NCBI GenBank assembly: GCA_031257715.1
Contig: JAIROE010000116.1
Location: forward strand, 1 to 7,090
DNA: 7,090 bases
Direction: 5' to 3'
Source: Treponema sp.
Lineage (GTDB): Bacteria; Spirochaetota; Spirochaetia; Treponematales; Breznakiellaceae
Below the pieces are notes generated by a model, which saw nothing but the letters and a program-made list of their open reading frames with translations, was not told the DNA's origin and did not search any database. Shown here piece by piece: positions 1 to 7,067 of this stretch (position 1 is the first letter of the stretch; the number at the start of each line of letters is the position of its first letter). The translations under genes were made by a program, and so were the position numbers.

Positions 1-264
1 CTCAATGCCCCGAATCCCGATCCGGACGCCATCGAAGTGATAGGATACCTGAACGGAAAGGATCTGGGCTATGCCGCCACAAGCCCGATGAGCCACCAAA
101 TCTACGATCCTACGGGCAAGTATCTTTTTGTCACCACTATTCAGTTGGGGAACGGCAATAAAGGGGAATTGGTGGTGCTCGATGGGAATTCCAGAAAAGT
201 TCTCGCCCGGATCGAACTGCCGGCTCACCCCCACGGGCTTGCTCTTCCGGGATATGGAAGGTAG
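1..264 (+). CDS. C-terminal fragment of a YVTN-type beta-propeller protein
   Basis: The reading frame is open from base 1 to a TAG stop at 262-264, so this is the last 87 codons of a gene that begins upstream. The fragment contains the typical pattern of a YVTN/cytochrome-D1-like propeller blade. It has an 'IYDPTGKYLFVTT' strand, then 'GELVVLD', then a strand reading 'KVLARIELPAHPHGLALP'. Such proteins are usually exported and act as binding scaffolds or as redox-cofactor-associated domains; no catalytic residue can be identified from this piece. A GTG at 37 could be taken for a start, but the same frame continues upstream with propeller-like sequence, so it is more likely internal. The next gene follows after 6 nt, which suggests co-transcription. 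The family call is fairly good; the function is unknown. Confidence 0.75.
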   Translation, partial: LNAPNPDPDAIEVIGYLNGKDLGYAATSPMSHQIYDPTGKYLFVTTIQLGNGNKGELVVLDGNSRKVLARIELPAHPHGLALPGYGR

Positions 265-270
265 GTCCGA

Positions 271-1257
271 ATGAATATAAAAGTATGCGTAAGCGCTTTG
301 GTAATCGTATCGGCTTTAGCGTCTTCACTGTATCCCGAAGGCGCCCGGGACTCAAAGGCCTATGCCAACACGCCGCGTGCCAGGGCCATTCGTAAGGGTC
401 AGGGACCGGAAATTATTCTGCCCCCACCCACGGTTGGCGTTGTAAGCCGGGCCGGGGACGAGGACAACTTTGAAAAATTTGTCTGGCCGGCGGATAAACT
501 CAAGGCGAATTACCGCGAAGTGGTTATTATCGACGCCAGGGTGAAAAATGATTATGAAAAAGAACATCTGCCCGGCGCGGTACAGCTTCACTGGAGGGAC
601 CTAGCCGATCAGTATAACGAACCGCCTTCCGATGCAGTCATAGCCGCTGAATTCGCAAAACGGGGAATCGATGTTTCCAAACCCATTGTGGTCTATAATG
701 AGCCCCTTGTCGGCGTTGCCGAAGAAACAAGGATACTGTGGCTACTGCGGTATCTCGGGATTAATAACAGTTATGTCCTTGATGGTGGTTTAAGTTACTG
801 GAAATCCCATGGCGGGGAAACCACCAAAGAGGAAACCGCCATCCCCCTGCTGACGCCGGTTTCGTCGTTTAACCGGAACGAGCGCCTGATCATCTCCACG
901 GAAGAACTAGCGTCCCGGCTTGGGACGGTAAACGTGCTTGACGCCCGAAGCGACGAGGAATACGCGAAGAGCCGGATACCCGGGGTAAAGTTTTGCTGGT
1001 TTAAGGATTTTTACCATTCTGACGGCACTTATTTTACTCCAGCCGAAACCAGGGCGAGAATCGCTCCTCTGGGTTTTGCCGAAGGCGATGAACTGGTAGT
1101 TCATTGCCAGGGGGGAATCAGATCGAGCCTTCCCTTCGTGCTTCTACAAACTGCGGGTTTTAAGGACCTCCGGAATTATTCGGCCAGCTTTGCCGGGTGG
1201 ACGGGAACCAATCAGCGGCTTGACAGCGCAAGCTATTCCAATATTCCGGAATATTAA
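271..1257 (+). CDS. Exported tandem-rhodanese sulfurtransferase (YnjE-like)
   Basis: This is a 328-residue protein with an N-terminal signal peptide: a basic start, a hydrophobic stretch at about residues 5-20, and possible cleavage after 'AYA' near residue 32. It should act in the periplasm. Two rhodanese domains follow. Domain 1 (about 75-185) has the 'IIDAR' and 'HLPGAVQLHW' signatures. At the catalytic position it has Asn143 ('VVYNEP') instead of Cys, so it is probably structural. Domain 2 (about 205-320) has 'VLDARSDEEY' and an active-site loop with Cys279 ('HCQGGIRSS') that can carry a persulfide. Rhodaneses transfer sulfane sulfur from donors such as thiosulfate or 3-mercaptopyruvate to thiophilic acceptors. 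An inactive first domain with an active second is normal for thiosulfate/mercaptopyruvate sulfurtransferases. E. coli YnjE has three rhodanese domains; only two are evident here. The ATG at 271 follows AGG at 263-265 with a 5-nt spacer and lies 6 nt after the upstream stop. The true sulfur donor is unknown. Confidence 0.9.
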   Translation: MNIKVCVSALVIVSALASSLYPEGARDSKAYANTPRARAIRKGQGPEIILPPPTVGVVSRAGDEDNFEKFVWPADKLKANYREVVIIDARVKNDYEKEHLPGAVQLHWRDLADQYNEPPSDAVIAAEFAKRGIDVSKPIVVYNEPLVGVAEETRILWLLRYLGINNSYVLDGGLSYWKSHGGETTKEETAIPLLTPVSSFNRNERLIISTEELASRLGTVNVLDARSDEEYAKSRIPGVKFCWFKDFYHSDGTYFTPAETRARIAPLGFAEGDELVVHCQGGIRSSLPFVLLQTAGFKDLRNYSASFAGWTGTNQRLDSASYSNIPEY

Positions 1258-1274: not shown

Positions 1275-2222
1275 ATGAAGAAGCTTCAGATTGTGCTGAA
1301 AATCCTCGTTTCAATCGCGCTTGTGGCGATTCTGGTTGTTACGGCAAATATCCGGGAAATAGTTTCCACTGTTTCCCGGTTCAATATCATCTGGCTTGGG
1401 CCGGTTTTTTTCTTTATTATCCTTGCCGTTATTATCAGCGTTTTTAAGTGGAAGGCGCTTCTCAAGGCCCAGGGGATTGCCGTCTCTGTTTTAAAGTTAT
1501 TCCGGTACTATACGGCCGGTTTTTTCTTTAATAATTTTCTGCCGTCAAGCCTGGGCTGCGATGGGGTACGGACGTTGCTGTTAAAAAACGAATTTAACAG
1601 TTACGCCGGCGCCGCTTCCTCCGTGGCGGCGGAACGCATTTTGGCAACAGCGAGCCTGGGCTTCCTTGGGCTCGTCGGGGCCTTGTTCGCATCTTCTCCC
1701 CAGCCTCCAGCGGCAGCCGCCCTGGGCATAATCTTTGCCGTGGGTGTCCTGCTGACGGCGCTGCTGCTTACGGGCTTTATTCCGAAAAAACTCGTGGAAA
1801 AGCAAAGCAAATTCGCCACAGGGTGGAAAGATTTCGCCGGCGCTTCGGCGGATCTTCGACGGCAACCCTTGAGCTTGGTTGTCTGCTTTGTCGAATCCAT
1901 TGCCTTCCAGATGGCGGTGGCCCTTTCCCAGGAGGCGATTATTTTAGGATTGGGCCTCCCGCCGTTGGGGCTTGGAGATCTTTTTTTTGCCAGCGCCGCG
2001 TCTTCCGCCATCGCCATGATACCTTTGGGGGTGAACGGATACGGCTTCCGGGAAGGGGGATTCATCTATCTCCTTGGGCCTTTAGGGTACTCCTCCTCCG
2101 CGGCCTTTTCCGTTTCCATACTCTTCGCCTTTTTTGTGGCGGTTTACAGCTTGTCAGGCGCGTTTTTCTGGATCCGCGAAAGGCCGGCCAGGAGAAATAA
2201 AACAACAGGAGCCCAAGCATGA
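1275..2222 (+). CDS. Flippase-like integral membrane protein (UPF0104 / MprF N-terminal-type family)
   Basis: The 315-residue polytopic membrane protein has hydrophobic segments at about 7-24, 41-57, 122-140, 146-168, 198-219, 233-251 and 270-299. It shows the family signatures in order. The first is 'FNNFLPSSLGCDGVR' at about 86-99, corresponding to the usual N-x-x-LP-x-x-x-GGD-x-xR, here with Cys95 replacing the second Gly. The second is 'AAERI' at 118-122. The third is 'IPLGVNGYGFREGGF' at 249-263, with the conserved Arg259-Glu260. The family includes the N-terminal flippase half of MprF, which moves aminoacylated phosphatidylglycerol, and the archaeal AglD C-terminal region. No aminoacyl-transferase domain is present here. 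It may therefore translocate a lipid or lipid-linked compound, but the substrate is not predictable. The ribosome-binding site is weak (CAGG at 1263-1266 or abutting the ATG). The 3' end overlaps the next gene by 4 nt (ATGA). Confidence 0.82.
   Translation: MKKLQIVLKILVSIALVAILVVTANIREIVSTVSRFNIIWLGPVFFFIILAVIISVFKWKALLKAQGIAVSVLKLFRYYTAGFFFNNFLPSSLGCDGVRTLLLKNEFNSYAGAASSVAAERILATASLGFLGLVGALFASSPQPPAAAALGIIFAVGVLLTALLLTGFIPKKLVEKQSKFATGWKDFAGASADLRRQPLSLVVCFVESIAFQMAVALSQEAIILGLGLPPLGLGDLFFASAASSAIAMIPLGVNGYGFREGGFIYLLGPLGYSSSAAFSVSILFAFFVAVYSLSGAFFWIRERPARRNKTTGAQA
2207..2211 (+). promoter_or_regulatory. Ribosome-binding site for the TVP38/TMEM64 gene
   Basis: AGGAG lies 7 nt before the ATG at 2219, inside the 3' end of the flippase-like gene. 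It supports the ATGA-overlap start for the TVP38 gene. Confidence 0.75.
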
Positions 2223-2941
2223 ACGTCAACAGAAAAACACTTTTAATTTTTTTGCGGATACTCCTCCTTGCAGCCGGGTCTGTGTTGTTCATTATGCCAC
2301 AGAGCAGAAAAGCGATTTTAAGCGTTGTGGCGGCGCTCGGCAGTGTCGATAGTGAACCGGTTAAAGCGTTCATCCTTTCCTTTGGGCCTTTTGCCGTTAT
2401 TGTTTCTTTCCTTCTTATGATTGCCCAGGCAATCGCGGCGCCGTTTCCGGCGTTTGTCATTACCTTCGCCAATGCGGCGCTTTTTGGATGGCTCCGGGGA
2501 GCAGCTCTTTCCTGGGCCAGCGCTATGGCGGGGGCGGCCATTTGTTTTGGCGTCGCCCGGCTCTTCGGCAGGGTCATCGTGGAAAAACTCGCCGGCAAAT
2601 ACGCCCTTGATTCAATTGACGATTTTTTTCTCAAGCACGGAGCGCTTTCCATAACGGCAGCAAGGCTTCTTCCCTTTGTTCCTTTTGATCCGGTAAGTTA
2701 TGCCGCGGGATTTACCAAAATGAATTTTTTTACCTTCCTTCTTGCCACCGGAATCGGCCAGCTTCCGGCGACCATTGTTTATTCATATTTTGGATCAACT
2801 CTTGGAGGCGGCGGCAGGATATTCTTTCAGGGGCTCTGCGCCCTCTTCGCCTTAGTCTGCGTTTCAGCCATAACAAAATCAATTTATGCCAATCGCAAAG
2901 CAAAGAAACACGAGGTAACACAAAATGAACGCCGCCAATGA
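2219..2941 (+). CDS. TVP38/TMEM64 family membrane protein (DedA superfamily)
   Basis: The 240-residue membrane protein has hydrophobic segments at about 8-27, 56-73, 76-93, 96-117, 168-190 and 202-222. The diagnostic TVP38/TMEM64 core is present at about 148-190. It has Arg149, then '[15 protein letters not shown]' (150-164) with Pro152 and Asp157, then a '[20 protein letters not shown]' segment. The family is part of the DedA/VTT superfamily, whose eukaryotic members TMEM41B and VMP1 are lipid scramblases. Bacterial DedA proteins are implicated in membrane-lipid recycling and proton-dependent homeostasis. E. coli YdjX and YdjZ are members of the same family and are encoded just upstream of ynjABCDEF. 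A lipid-scrambling or small-solute role here is inference. The gene starts inside the flippase-like gene and its last 17 nt overlap the cysteine synthase gene, suggesting translational coupling on both sides. The C-terminal tail (223-240) is highly charged and probably cytosolic. Confidence 0.9.
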
Positions 2942-4424
2942 TCTGACCGAACTCATCGGCCATACGCCTCTTTTAAAAATAAACAGAACAAATCCGCACA
3001 AGGCAAATATCTTCGCCAAACTTGAGTCGTACAACCCCCTTTCCAGCGTGAAAGATCGGGTGGGTTTTTCCATGATTGACGCGGCGGAAAAAACCGGACG
3101 CATCAAACCAGGCGATACCCTTATCGAACCGACCAGCGGAAACACCGGCATAGGTCTCGCCTTCGTGAGCGCCATTAAAGGCTACCGCCTTATCCTTACT
3201 ATGCCTGAAACCATGAGTCTTGAACGCCGAAAGATACTGCGGGCTTTAGGCGCAGAGATTGTGCTTACCGATTCATATGACGGCATGGAAGGCTCAATCA
3301 AAAAGGCCTTGGAATTGGCTGTGTCTATTCCCGGCTCTTTTATTCTCCAGCAATTTGACAATCCCGCGAACACGGCTATACACCGGCTTGCCACCGCGGA
3401 GGAAATCTGGAATGACACCGATGGACAGGTTGACATTTTCGTAGCCGGCGTAGGCACCGGTGGCACCATTACCGGAGTGGGGGAGATTCTGAAACAGAGG
3501 AAAAAGGATGTTAAAGTTATCGCCGTAGAGCCTTTCAAATCGGCGATTCTTTCCGGAGGCGTCGCCTCGCCCCATCGGATCCAGGGCATCGGAGCGGGCT
3601 TTATTCCGGGCATTTTAAACCGGAATGTGATCGATGAGATCGTTACAGTCATTGACGAGGATGCCAGCAAGACCGCCCGTGAACTAGCGAAAAACGAAGG
3701 CCTCCTGGTAGGCATATCGGGAGCGGCGGCCATGTGGGCGGCTTTGAAGATCGCCCGCGAGCCGGAAAACGAGGGGAAGAACATCATAGTGATTATTCCT
3801 GATTCAGGCGAACGGTATCTGAGCACCTGGCTTTACGAGGAGTTTGTGGCCAATAAAACCGAAGATTCGGGCGGCGCCGCTTCCATTGCCCTTGACGGCG
3901 CGGCCCATCCGCCGGCTTCAATTAGGGCGTTAAAATATTTCCGCAATGGCCTTTATTGCAGCGAAGCCATTTTCAGGGCTTTTAACGAAGAGTACGGCTT
4001 GACTATGCAGGGTGATTACAACCGTCTGCTCACCGGTTTCGGATCGGGTCTGGGGGAATCAGGCTGCGCCTGTGGAGCGGTCACCGGATGCGTCATGGCC
4101 TTGGGCGCCTTGGCCGGGAGGCAGTATAATTACGAGTCCGAACGGGTTCTTTATACAGCGGTACACAAACTGCACGACGAGTTCCGTAAAAAGCACAAGG
4201 CAATCTGCTGCAGAGTTCTTACAAAAAACGTGGCATGGAATTCAGCGGAGCATAAAATCCAATGTGAACAGTATATGCTTGACGCCGCGGATATTACGGA
4301 TCGGATCTTTAATGCAGAGCTTCGGGAGTACGCCGGTTCAAAAAGCGGAAAAAAGCCCCCCATGAAAAAAACTCCCCTGGCTTTACTCCGCCGTATTGTT
4401 TCCGCCATAAAACAGGGGGCCTAA
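2925..4424 (+). CDS. cysK: Cysteine synthase fused to a C-terminal C_GCAxxG_C_C redox domain
   Basis: This 499-residue protein is well over the roughly 310 residues of ordinary O-acetylserine sulfhydrylases. Residues 1 to about 312 form a complete PLP enzyme. Lys43 sits in 'NPLSSVKDR' (Schiff-base lysine), 'TSGNTG' at 70-75 is the substrate loop, 'GTGGT' at 177-181 binds the cofactor phosphate, and '[10 protein letters not shown]' starts at 292. It should make cysteine from O-acetylserine and sulfide, or from another thiol nucleophile. A short linker leads to a C-terminal domain at about 335-460. It resembles the C_GCAxxG_C_C putative redox family: 'YCSEAI' (Cys345), 'GFGSGLG', 'CGAVTG' (Cys383-Gly388), 'CCRVL' (Cys428, Cys429) and Cys447. 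Cys381 and Cys389 flank the central motif. A basic tail at 470-499 ends the protein. GAGG at 2912-2915, 9 nt before the ATG, supports the start. The frame is open throughout, so the fusion is real unless the assembly contains an error. A cystathionine beta-synthase-type specificity cannot be excluded. Confidence 0.9.
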
Positions 4425-5026
4425 TGCTTGACACAAGATTACGGAAGCATGTCGCTTTTCTTTTTGACGGCGGCGCGGCTTTTTTTGAAAAACTAAACGT
4501 TTCCCCCACCGGAGTAACCCTCATTGCTTTCGTTGCCGGGCTTACCGCAAGCGGAATTTATCTTCTTGGGTTCCCTCTGGCGGCGGTTGTTGTCTTGTGG
4601 ATATCCGGCTGGCTCGACGCGGTGGATGGAACTCTGGCCCGGCGTGCCGGCAAAACCAGCAAACTCGGCGCTTTTCTTGACGTTTGGTTTGACCGGGTCG
4701 TTGAGGGCTGCATACTGCTCACCCTGGGCATTAAATACCCTGGAGCGTCTTTTCCGCTTTTATGTTCCGCCTTGGCGATCATCTTGTCCATGACCGCGTT
4801 TTTGCTGACCGGCGCCCTGGTGGAAAATAACACCAAAAAGAATTTTTTTTATCAGTCGGGAATCATGGAAAGAAGCGAAGGATTTATACTATTTTCGCTA
4901 ATGTGGCTTTTGCCGAAATACCTTGATGTATTGTCATATCTGTGCGCCGCGCTGATTTTATTTACCGCCTGCCAGCGGGCGCTGCTGACCATATTGGCCT
5001 TAAAACGGGAAGGAGATAAATCATGA
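4424..5026 (+). CDS. CDP-alcohol phosphatidyltransferase family protein (YnjF-like)
   Basis: The 200-residue membrane protein carries the complete CDP-alcohol phosphatidyltransferase signature D-x2-D-G-x2-A-R-x8-G-x3-D-x3-D. The residues are Asp65, Asp68, Gly69, Ala72, Arg73, Gly82, Asp86 and Asp90. These aspartates coordinate the divalent metal and perform displacement of CMP from CDP-diacylglycerol (or another CDP-alcohol) by an alcohol acceptor. Hydrophobic segments lie at about 30-50, 52-63, 94-104, 109-131, 153-163 and 168-190. The length is close to E. coli YnjF (about 206 residues), another small family member in a ynj cluster. The signature does not reveal the acceptor: glycerol phosphate, inositol phosphate, serine or something unusual are all possible. 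The gene starts at the TAATG junction, a 1-nt overlap with the cysteine synthase fusion, preceded by AGGGGG at 4414-4419. It ends in a 4-nt overlap with the binding-protein gene. Confidence 0.9.
   Translation: MLDTRLRKHVAFLFDGGAAFFEKLNVSPTGVTLIAFVAGLTASGIYLLGFPLAAVVVLWISGWLDAVDGTLARRAGKTSKLGAFLDVWFDRVVEGCILLTLGIKYPGASFPLLCSALAIILSMTAFLLTGALVENNTKKNFFYQSGIMERSEGFILFSLMWLLPKYLDVLSYLCAALILFTACQRALLTILALKREGDKS
5007..5015 (+). promoter_or_regulatory. Strong ribosome-binding site for the substrate-binding protein gene
   Basis: GGGAAGGAG ends 7 nt before the ATG at 5023, within the end of the phosphatidyltransferase gene. It is the best Shine-Dalgarno match in the window, in keeping with the high expression that binding proteins usually need relative to their permeases. 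Confidence 0.8.
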
Positions 5027-6198
5027 AGAAATTATGCATTGCGGCTTTTTTTGTCGCTGCTTTTTTTAATTGTAATAAAGAAACGATCCCGGTTGTCCTG
5101 AGCGGATGGGGAGGAGATCCGAATGTAAACGCGTGGATATCCGGAGAGTTCCTTCCCTATATTGAAAGAACAGAAGGGGTAAAAGCCGTTTGGTCTCCCA
5201 TGAATATTGACGAGATACTGGCGAAAGTGGAGAATGAAAAAAACGCCGACGCCAAAGGCACGATAGACGTAGTCTGGATAAATGGCGAGAATTTCCGCTA
5301 TGCCAAAGAACACGGTCTGCTGGAAGAAGGGTTTCTTTCAAGCCTGGACAACACGAAAAAATACCTCGATCTGGAGGATGAAAAAAATATCTACGATTTT
5401 GCCTATCCTACAGGTCTTTCCGAATCCCCCTGGGGCAGGGCTCAATTTATCTTCGCCGCCGATACGGCAAAGGCCCCGTCTCCCCCCAAAAACGCAAAGG
5501 AATTAAAGGCTTTTCTTGAAGAACATCCGGGAACTTTTACCTATCCTGAGTCAAATGATTTCACGGCTTCTGCTTTTCTACGGGTCCTGATCTACGATAT
5601 TGTCGGCTTCGATGTGATAAAAGATATTCCGGCGGATAAAGCGTCAATCGCCCATGCCATTCGGCCTGTGTTCGATTATCTTAATGAGATCGAACCCCTG
5701 CTCTGGCGGAACGGCGCAACCTACCCCAAAACCGTGGCCCAGCTTGACGAACTCTTCCAGGATGGGAGCGTGTGCTTTACCATGGATTACAATTCCTACA
5801 AGAGCTATTCTCAGATAAACGACGGCTTCTGGCCGGCGAGCGCCAGGACTTTTGTCTGGGACAGCGGAACGCCCAGCAATACTCATTTTCTCGCTATACC
5901 TTTCAACAGCCAAAACAAGGAAGGCGCCAAAAAAGCGATCAACGCCTCGCTTTCGCCGGCCATGCAGGCGTCAAAAGCCAGACTTTCGGGATGGGGCGAT
6001 GCTCCCGTGATCGACTTCAAAAAGCTGACGCCGGAAGAAAAAAATATCTTCGCCACGAATCTTGCCGGCCTCAATCCCACGGCAGCCGCTTCCTTGCTTT
6101 CCGATGAATATCTGGGGACTCATGCCCAGGCGGAACTGGCAGGCGATGTGGTGGTTATCATTGAGCAGCTCTGGCAGGAAGAAGTGCTTTTGAAATAG
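5023..6198 (+). CDS. ynjB: YnjB-family ABC transporter substrate-binding lipoprotein
   Basis: The 391-residue extracytoplasmic binding protein begins with a short signal sequence (MKK plus a hydrophobic stretch) ending at Cys17 in 'FFNC', a probable lipidation site. Asn at -1 is not the canonical [GAS] and is more typical of relaxed spirochaetal lipoboxes. The body matches what I recall of the YnjB family (uncharacterised YnjBCD importer). It has 'SGWGGDPNVN' from residue 27, 'IDVVWINGENF' at 81-91, 'SPWGRAQFIF' in the middle and 'GTFTYPESNDFTASAF' from residue 170. The fold should be a two-lobed type II periplasmic-binding protein related to those for iron, thiamine or polyamines. The YnjB ligand is not established to my knowledge. 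The permease gene follows after 11 nt, forming an import module. In E. coli the matching genes ynjB and ynjC are likewise adjacent. Confidence 0.88.
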   Translation: MKKLCIAAFFVAAFFNCNKETIPVVLSGWGGDPNVNAWISGEFLPYIERTEGVKAVWSPMNIDEILAKVENEKNADAKGTIDVVWINGENFRYAKEHGLLEEGFLSSLDNTKKYLDLEDEKNIYDFAYPTGLSESPWGRAQFIFAADTAKAPSPPKNAKELKAFLEEHPGTFTYPESNDFTASAFLRVLIYDIVGFDVIKDIPADKASIAHAIRPVFDYLNEIEPLLWRNGATYPKTVAQLDELFQDGSVCFTMDYNSYKSYSQINDGFWPASARTFVWDSGTPSNTHFLAIPFNSQNKEGAKKAINASLSPAMQASKARLSGWGDAPVIDFKKLTPEEKNIFATNLAGLNPTAAASLLSDEYLGTHAQAELAGDVVVIIEQLWQEEVLLK

Positions 6199-6209: not shown

Positions 6210-7067
6210 GTGGGCCGCGATTATTCCTTCCAAAAAATGATATGGTCAAGGCTTCACGGGATACGTCCGTTTATTCTGCCCGCCGCAGCGCTGTGCCCGG
6301 CTGTCATGCTGGTAGCGGCTATTGCCGCCACCGCCGCCGGGCATGCGCTGATGGCCGGGAAAGGCGGGTACGCCGCCCTCCTGGCTTCCCCTTTTTTTAA
6401 AAAAGCCGTGGTGTTTTCCTTTCTTGTCGCGGTTTTTTGCGCCTTAAGCTCCGTTTTGGCGGGCGCCTTCCTGGCCTTTCTCTTCTGTGAAAAAACCGGA
6501 GGCGCTATAGTTCTTGCGAAGATCTATGTGGCGCTGCCCTACCTCGCCGCCGCTTCCTTTGTCGCCAATGCCTTCGGCGACAACGGCCTGGCGGCGCATT
6601 TAGTCAAGATTATTTATCCCCCCCTACGCGGCGCCGGAATACGGTACAATTCTGTTGGGGCCGGGGTTATTATCGCCTGTATGTATAAGCAGATTCCCTT
6701 TGTGTTTTTAACGTTAAGCGCTTTTTTCTGCGGCTTACGGGAAAAGTTTTACGATACGGCGTGCACCCTGGGCGCCCGGCCGATTACGGTTTTTTTTAAG
6801 GTATATCTCCCCAATGCCGTTCGCCCTTTGGCAGGAGCCGCTATGCTTATTTTTCAATTTACCCTTTTTAACTATGAGACCTTCGCCTTTCTGGGGCCTT
6901 CATCGCCCAAGGGCCTTGGTGAATTGCTCATCATGTTCTATTATTCTGCGGACGCTTCCCAAAAAAAGATAGCCCTTGCCCTCTGTGCCTTTCAGATCGC
7001 ATTTACCGTTATTATCGCCACCGTTCTGGCGATCATCGCCTTCGGGGGGAGAAAAAAAGAATTTTGA
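6210..7067 (+). CDS. ABC transporter permease subunit (YnjC N-terminal-half-like)
   Basis: The 285-residue polytopic protein has hydrophobic segments at about 22-45, 65-93, 103-122, 148-172, 205-228 and 255-278. The cytoplasmic EAA loop that contacts the ATPase is at about 179-208. It includes 'YDTACTLGARP' with the conserved Gly188 and 'FFKVYLPNAVRPL'. This is the normal topology of a binding-protein-dependent inner-membrane permease. It directly follows the YnjB-type gene and so should be its partner. E. coli YnjC is about twice as long and has two permease domains in one chain. This protein is only one domain, and a second gene seems to start at 7064. The GTG start at 6210 is preferred because of AGGG upstream; ATG at 6237 would remove nine residues before the first membrane segment without affecting function. 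No ATPase (YnjD-type) gene is in the window; it would be expected downstream. Confidence 0.87.
   Translation: MGRDYSFQKMIWSRLHGIRPFILPAAALCPAVMLVAAIAATAAGHALMAGKGGYAALLASPFFKKAVVFSFLVAVFCALSSVLAGAFLAFLFCEKTGGAIVLAKIYVALPYLAAASFVANAFGDNGLAAHLVKIIYPPLRGAGIRYNSVGAGVIIACMYKQIPFVFLTLSAFFCGLREKFYDTACTLGARPITVFFKVYLPNAVRPLAGAAMLIFQFTLFNYETFAFLGPSSPKGLGELLIMFYYSADASQKKIALALCAFQIAFTVIIATVLAIIAFGGRKKEF

Follow-up and report, generated by a model that had tools for sequence, protein, structure and literature searches.

A cysteine synthase fused to a C_GCAxxG_C_C domain in a ydj/ynj-type operon of Treponema, a candidate sulfur-handling protein

The window analyzed here is the whole of a 7,090-nucleotide stretch of Treponema sp. 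DNA (assembly GCA_031257715.1, contig JAIROE010000116.1), and its central feature is a gene at 2925..4424 on the + strand that encodes a fusion of the cysteine synthase CysK with a C_GCAxxG_C_C domain. The frame begins with ATG, ends with TAA, and encodes a protein of 499 amino acids, without an internal stop. In Pfam, PALP (PF00291) matches residues 8-293 with 237 bits (cutoff 35), and C_GCAxxG_C_C (PF09719) matches residues 344-461 with 97.5 bits (cutoff 27). In NCBIfam, cysK (TIGR01139) covers residues 8-304 with 447.2 bits against a cutoff of 350.95, and TIGR01909 covers residues 344-461 with 88 bits against 47.4. An initial reading of the DNA, made without database searches (the sequence-only reading), had described a complete cysteine synthase and a Cys-rich domain in one uninterrupted frame, and the open reading frame (ORF), Pfam, and NCBIfam all agree with this description. 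The same reading had placed the second domain at residues 335-460, where both profiles score above their cutoffs, so that the family assignment stands, while the limits are revised to 344-461.

The CysK (O-acetylserine sulfhydrylase A) half occupies residues 8-304 (2946..3836, +). Its recognizable sites are the pyridoxal phosphate (PLP) lysine K43, TSGNTG at 70-75, Q143, GTGGT at 177-181, S265, and PDSGERY at 292-298, and these include all four of the motifs named by the sequence-only reading (Lys43, TSGNTG, GTGGT, and PDSGERY). The window protein has K43, T70, S71, N73, Q143, T178, G180, T181, and S265, and the tested catalytic positions are kept in all 116 fused rows with a complete CysK half (from 125 candidates), except for T178, which is kept in 115. 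In a 35-row alignment, the four motifs are invariant, apart from the serine of PDSGERY. The fused proteins differ systematically from 81 rows of ordinary CysK only at positions 117 and 207, at the thresholds used. These features support the prediction that the CysK half is of the canonical cysteine synthase A type, and would form cysteine.

They also bear on a flow of sulfur in the opposite direction, in which cysteine would be the source of sulfide made by the CysK half. The Cys domain would then use this sulfide to assemble or charge an iron-sulfur centre of its own, or hand the sulfur on to the membrane/lipid pathway of the operon. The SDH-alpha family includes cysteine desulfidases, and an SDH-alpha protein is encoded in one sulfur locus (L117, described below), while sulfide-producing enzymes of the CysK fold do exist, as in the Fn1220 rows of the structure comparison. 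However, this half fits the cysteine synthase A family best, with a score well over the cutoff, and the scarcity of systematic differences from ordinary CysK leaves this reversal improbable.

The two halves are joined by a linker at residues 305-343 (3837..3953, +), the first part of which is modeled with low confidence. The spacing between the GERYLST and FxNG motifs was evaluated in 240 proteins, 120 of which are stand-alone Cys proteins; both motifs were detected in 117 of the 240, and the spacing in these 117 is 32-45 residues, with a median of 37. The model of the full-length fusion has a predicted local distance difference test score of 77.8, with values below 50 in the linker and parts of the C-terminal half also uncertain. 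The rows listed by VIA-align for this model were all of the CysK fold, so that this comparison tests the N-terminal half alone.

The C_GCAxxG_C_C domain itself (residues 344-461; 3954..4307, +) contains six conserved cysteines, that is, C345, C381, and C383 (the last in the CGAVTG motif), together with C428, C429, and C447; the family name shows four. The six-cysteine pattern is present in 223 of the 240 proteins, including all 120 fusions and 103 of the 120 stand-alone proteins (some of which are fragments), and the same six residues are invariant in A5, a broad set comprising 38 Cys domains. The domain is followed by a C-terminal tail (4308..4421, +) with a K-x-PLALLRR-like stretch, also found in many of the fusions and in the stand-alone protein of locus L194.

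Searches with a single sequence or a narrow profile recovered no solved structure of note as a relative of the Cys domain. The wide A5 profile found the split-Soret cytochrome c (PDB 1h21), and comparison of the domain model with this structure gave a helical match over 136 residues, with three of the six cysteines aligned, which places the two in the same fold. This match supports the prediction of a small, all-helical domain of the split-Soret cytochrome fold. The haem-binding motif CXXCH is absent from residues 344-499, and the likeliest cofactor of the domain is an iron or Fe-S centre. Overall, the sequences and models support a description of the fusion as a canonical cysteine synthase joined to a Cys domain of a putative iron type.

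The database search for the same architecture was conducted with residues 300-480, and returned 140 proteins at E ≤ 0.001. All 120 of the listed homologues have both PF09719 and PF00291 (at least 120 of the 140), which rules out a frameshift or an assembly artefact. This search admitted proteins of 0.55-1.75 times the 499-residue length, a filter that drops the stand-alone Cys proteins, so that the fusions are shown to be many, and not to be the rule. Names among the sources of the listed fusions include Lachnospiraceae, Clostridia, and a "Fusobacteria" bacterium, and many of the named assemblies are metagenome-assembled genomes (MAGs). A search of contigs recovered the fusion in two MAGs, one of Treponema (L001) and one of Clostridiales Family XIII (L002), while the other 78 of the 80 loci kept were CysK, with the match ending by query residue 350. 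The fusion is thus conserved in at least two phyla, and is not unique to the genome of the window. In whole genomes it is rare, being found in one of the 296 sampled from the phylum of genome G001, three of 147 relatives of G001, and two of the 398 sampled from the phylum of genome G002, where one further genome has the two genes unfused and adjacent. Matches to the Cys domain (E ≤ 1e-25) occur in 75 of these 398 genomes.

An origin in phages or plasmids was also considered and rejected. Among 14 CysK-like loci recovered from viral sequences, no match went past query residue 329, and two plasmid proteins, fetched from six records annotated as C-GCAxxG-C-C proteins, were both stand-alone.

In the tree of the CysK half, 32 fused rows lie on one side of a branch (support 100/99), with 30 ordinary CysK rows on the other; three further loci contributed none. 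In the tree of the Cys domain, where fused rows number 36 and stand-alone rows 33, the distribution of the two states requires only two changes, one gain and one loss. The loss is that of locus L194, whose stand-alone protein is nested within the fusions as the sister of protein P0014 (100/99), and thus derives from the fusion by loss of the CysK half. The nearest outside rows are the Cys proteins of two ArsS clusters (L152 and L153), which are joined weakly (89/54). A single fusion event, with both halves under constraint, is well supported by these trees and alignments. The absence of any functional coupling, with a pair of neighboring genes fused by chance and then kept, would fit the loss of the CysK half in L194, although the retention of one fusion in two phyla, in which both the six cysteines and the catalytic residues tested are conserved, gives this explanation little probability.

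The genes around the fusion form part of an operon. The window is cut at both ends, with its right edge just after a permease gene, and its seven ORFs lie on one strand (+), separated by gaps of 17, -4, -17, -1, -4, and 11 nucleotides. The first encodes a two-domain rhodanese (271..1257; Pfam), a relative of YnjE (21% identity, 3e-9), in which a hydrophobic N-terminal segment is apparent by eye, with a single cysteine (C279) in an active-site-type CQGGIR motif. It is followed by a flippase-like membrane protein (1275..2222), which is LPG_synthase_TM in Pfam and TIGR00374 in NCBIfam, and a VTT/DedA-type membrane protein (2219..2941), with 54% identity to Escherichia coli YdjZ over 226 residues (E 5e-78), far above the 21-34% of the other genes shared with E. 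coli. Beyond the fusion lie a cytidine diphosphate (CDP)-alcohol phosphatidyltransferase related to YnjF (4424..5026; 29%, 1e-16), a YnjB-type substrate-binding protein of an ATP-binding cassette (ABC) transporter (5023..6198; NF008633, 344.6 against a cutoff of 203; 34% to E. coli YnjB), and an ABC permease (6210..7067; BPD_transp_1) in the position of YnjC. This permease has 55% identity to the permease at the same place in L194, while BLAST against E. coli YnjC gave no match at E ≤ 1e-3. The sequence-only reading had remarked that the Cys family often lies near transporter genes, which holds in the window, given the YnjB-type ABC genes downstream of the fusion. At the left edge, the C-terminal end of a further gene (1..264, +) has 67% identity over 87 residues to the lipoprotein-like gene that precedes the rhodanese in locus L193, with weak beta-propeller matches below the cutoff.

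In E. coli K-12, the genes ydjX, ydjY, ydjZ, and ynjA-ynjF lie in one stretch, with ynjF on the opposite strand, and a table in PMC3688515 places ydjXYZ-ynjABCD among the operons of the FNR regulon. The gene xthA adjoins ydjX in E. coli (L213:6429-8112), and xth is also listed next to a C-GCAxxG-C-C gene in a Bacteroides table, in the portion of PMC10434189 consulted; this proximity may be a coincidence.

The closest parallel to the window is L194, in genome G760, a relative of G001. Its genes are, in order, a rhodanese, a 149-residue ORF, a second rhodanese, the stand-alone Cys protein, VTT, the CDP-alcohol transferase, YnjB, a permease, a second permease, and an ATPase. Identities to the window are 39% for the second-listed rhodanese, 57% for the Cys protein, 53% for VTT, 66% for the CDP-alcohol transferase, and 70% for YnjB. 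Neither a flippase gene nor a CysK was found in this operon, which shows that an operon of the ynj type can dispense with the CysK half, yet keep the Cys domain. In L193 (genome G725), the rhodanese, flippase, and VTT have 57-74% identity to those of the window, and the contig ends after them.

Matches to YnjB were present in 21 genomes (4 of 198 and 17 of 199 searched), and 20 neighborhoods were fetched. VTT is present in 13 of these, the CDP-alcohol transferase in 10, a rhodanese in nine, two glycosyltransferase-like genes in four, and CysK in none. Two of them (L239 and L246) encode a Cys protein that shares the cysteine pattern, beside flippase and VTT genes. The Cys protein is thus an occasional member of the ynj operon in its own right, and the window represents its CysK-fused form. 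In three ynj operons without a Cys protein (L241, L242, and L244), two recurring genes, of approximately 255-347 and 595-599 residues, stand beside VTT, and look Fe-S-like by eye, as if different proteins filled the redox slot.

Elsewhere, the genes upstream of the fusion encode glycyl-radical enzymes (L001 and L113), ABC proteins (L114 and L115), or an unrelated product (L002). In one Treponema MAG (L113:14070-16478; L001:2-460), the fusion begins approximately 15 nucleotides after the glycyl-radical enzyme gene, the best family of which is PFL2/glycerol dehydratase, below the cutoff. At L116, a rhodanese with 40% identity to that of the window lies 130 nucleotides before the fusion. Two loci also connect CysK with the Cys protein in the absence of a fusion. 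In L117, a Cys/Met PLP enzyme is followed downstream by an ordinary CysK (6213-7145), a stand-alone Cys gene (7278-7715), the SDH-alpha protein, and an SsuA-like transporter, while in L155, CysK is two genes away from the Cys gene.

A further 40 neighborhoods of Cys genes were read, namely, the first 43 match rows from the phylum of G002, except for that of L117, the fusion L116, and one inside a region already fetched. Neighbors were counted by tblastn, for which the reference sequences came from the loci themselves, and the Cys gene was recovered in all 40. The most frequent neighbors are relatives of the am_tr_V_EF2568 desulfurase (eight), TDT-like transporters, ArsR, and genes that we take to be DUF3343-like, without a match in NCBIfam (seven each), and YedF (six). 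These are followed by Acr3 and presumed DUF2703-like genes (three each), ArsA, ArsD, and SsuA-like genes (two each), and an OAH sulfhydrylase-like gene (one). ArsS occurs with a flippase, VTT, and two glycosyltransferase-like genes in two of the neighborhoods. One example each of YedF, ACR3, ArsA, ArsD, ArsR, ArsS, and the desulfurase family scored above its NCBIfam cutoff, while both glycosyltransferases and the TehA-like transporter fell below. None of these neighbor families matched in 17 control regions from 17 of these genomes, a control that is descriptive and does not amount to a test, because the reference families were chosen from the same loci. The ABC ATPase is not enriched near the Cys genes (8/40 vs. 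5/17 controls).

Some individual arrangements are also worth recording. Loci L152 and L153 share the order flippase-like, VTT, ArsS radical S-adenosylmethionine (SAM) protein, Cys protein, TIGR04283-like, and TIGR04282-like, which suggests that C_GCAxxG_C_C proteins take part in arsenosugar-type clusters. In L150:333-7437, the Cys gene overlaps that of an SsuA-like binding protein, next to ArsD, ArsA, ArsR, and Acr3. Cys genes lie near YedF selenium and DUF3343-like genes in L156, L158, L167, L183, and others, and the seven with a TehA-like TDT transporter are L173, L174, L175, L181, L185, L188, and L189. Locus L118 adjoins selA/selB.

These neighborhoods raise the alternative that the Cys domain handles metalloids (selenium or arsenic) rather than sulfur, with CysK as the source of cysteine, or of an analogue, for the same pathway, be it one of detoxification or of metalloid lipids. 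The recurrence of selenium and arsenic families (am_tr_V-like, ArsR, DUF3343-like, YedF, Acr3, ArsA, ArsD, and ArsS), the position of L118, and the flippase-VTT neighbors common to the window and the ArsS clusters are all consistent with such a role. However, these families were picked for their recurrence, and the selenium and arsenic references match neither the window nor the fusion loci L001, L002, and L113-L116, which makes this alternative rather unlikely, although somewhat less so than a reversed flow of sulfur.

A further alternative is that the Cys domain is a sensor, whose iron or thiols would read the redox, iron, or sulfur state of the cell, and act as an on/off switch for the attached CysK. 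Accessory domains regulate some related PLP enzymes. The CysK half is a complete enzyme that coexists with ordinary copies of CysK, as would be expected of a regulated paralogue. In addition, a Bacteroides member of the family (in BT0629-31) is included in a table of the iron-dependent stimulon in the part of PMC10434189 consulted. However, in 39 of the 40 Cys-gene neighborhoods, as in the L194 operon, there is no CysK nearby, and the domain seems to work without an enzyme to regulate, while the invariance of its six cysteines, even in the wide set, is more in keeping with an active site or a metal site. A sensor is, then, a doubtful explanation, if a better one than the metalloid alternative.

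The likeliest mechanism, advanced here tentatively and at less than an even chance, is that proposed by the sequence-only reading, in which the Cys domain either supplies the nucleophile of the tethered CysK or reduces it. The Cys domain would act as a redox and sulfur-handling module, taking up oxidized or sulfane sulfur (a persulfide, thiosulfate, or selenium equivalent), which would be reduced to a free nucleophile at the six-cysteine/iron site, and then captured by the tethered CysK as cysteine, with or without channeling between the two. In the window, the putative sources of sulfur are the exported YnjE-like rhodanese and the YnjBCD-type ABC importer of the same operon. This supply or reduction of the nucleophile is favored because it explains CysK, the rhodanese, and the sulfur-transporter neighbors.

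A number of observations weigh against this mechanism. Ordinary CysK is also present in all five of the fusion genomes searched (two matches each in G001 and G743, and one each in G002, G397, and G745), so that bulk cysteine synthesis does not need the fusion, which is a specialized extra copy. The L194 operon, of the same kind, retains the Cys domain without the CysK half, which points to a role of the domain independent of covalently attached CysK. The other fusion loci read (L001, L002, L113, L114, and L115) are not in ynj operons, and a separate CysK was found in just one of the 40 Cys-gene neighborhoods (L155), with L117 an extra case outside the 40. On the structural side, the placement of the domains in the full-length model is unreliable, the Z score for 1h21, taken alone, is borderline for a helical domain, and Foldseek with the domain model recovered nothing significant, with no E below 0.7.

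A broader proposal, about as doubtful as the sensor, is that the C_GCAxxG_C_C domain is an iron-based reductase or carrier of chalcogens, and perhaps metalloids, which would be a plug-in for the CysK fusion, the FNR-linked ydj/ynj operon of membrane lipids and sulfur import, selenium metabolism, and the arsenosugar and arsenic operons. If this were true, the fusion would be self-contained, converting sulfane sulfur or selenium to cysteine or selenocysteine with no need of free sulfide, and would reveal what class of substrate the uncharacterized YnjBCD transporter handles.

The literature searches found nothing on a fusion of CysK with C_GCAxxG_C_C. The literature found, including the parts consulted of PMC9312934, PMC13188914, and PMC10434189, assigns no tested function to C_GCAxxG_C_C proteins, and there was nothing on function in the corresponding portions of PMC7818093 and PMC5701242. 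The one paper that names ynjE together with ynjB is, judging by its abstract, unrelated, and a connection of DedA proteins with selenite was met as a cited reference. These proteins are widespread, and three findings make their function directly testable in a laboratory strain, namely, the fusion to an enzyme of known chemistry, the fold match to an iron protein, and an operon that ties the domain to the little-studied ydj/ynj genes of E. coli. The fusion and its setting in the window thus provide a testable clue to the roles of the domain and the operon alike. The L194 operon, which lost the CysK half and kept the Cys domain, offers a natural control to tell which of the two matters.

In comparison with known systems, the fusion has the whole enzyme of the CysK family TIGR01139, with its PLP lysine, motifs, and O-acetylserine sulfhydrylase fold, but adds the Cys domain at its C-terminus, and the fused rows group in a clade (100/99) separate from the 30 ordinary CysK rows. 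With the C_GCAxxG_C_C family (PF09719/TIGR01909), described as putatively redox-active and including some selenoproteins, it shares scores above the cutoffs, the CGAxxG motif, and the conserved cysteines, whereas in the window the domain is joined to an enzyme; the relatives aligned have six invariant cysteines. The helical fold and three aligned cysteines are common to the Cys domain and 1h21, while the window domain has no CXXCH haem motif, and its iron centre is a prediction. The ArsS-type arsenosugar clusters (TIGR04167, with relatives of TIGR04282 and TIGR04283 below the cutoff) combine a flippase, VTT, and Cys protein in L152 and L153, whereas the window, cut at both ends, has no match to a radical SAM protein (ArsS) or glycosyltransferase. 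In relation to the ydjXYZ-ynjABCDEF genes of E. coli, no match to YdjY or YnjA was found within the window, which ends before the place of a YnjD-type ATPase, although L194 has an ATPase at the matching place. The window shares with E. coli the YdjZ-like VTT protein, YnjB, the ABC permease, the rhodanese, and the CDP-alcohol transferase, and adds to these the flippase-like gene and the CysK fusion.
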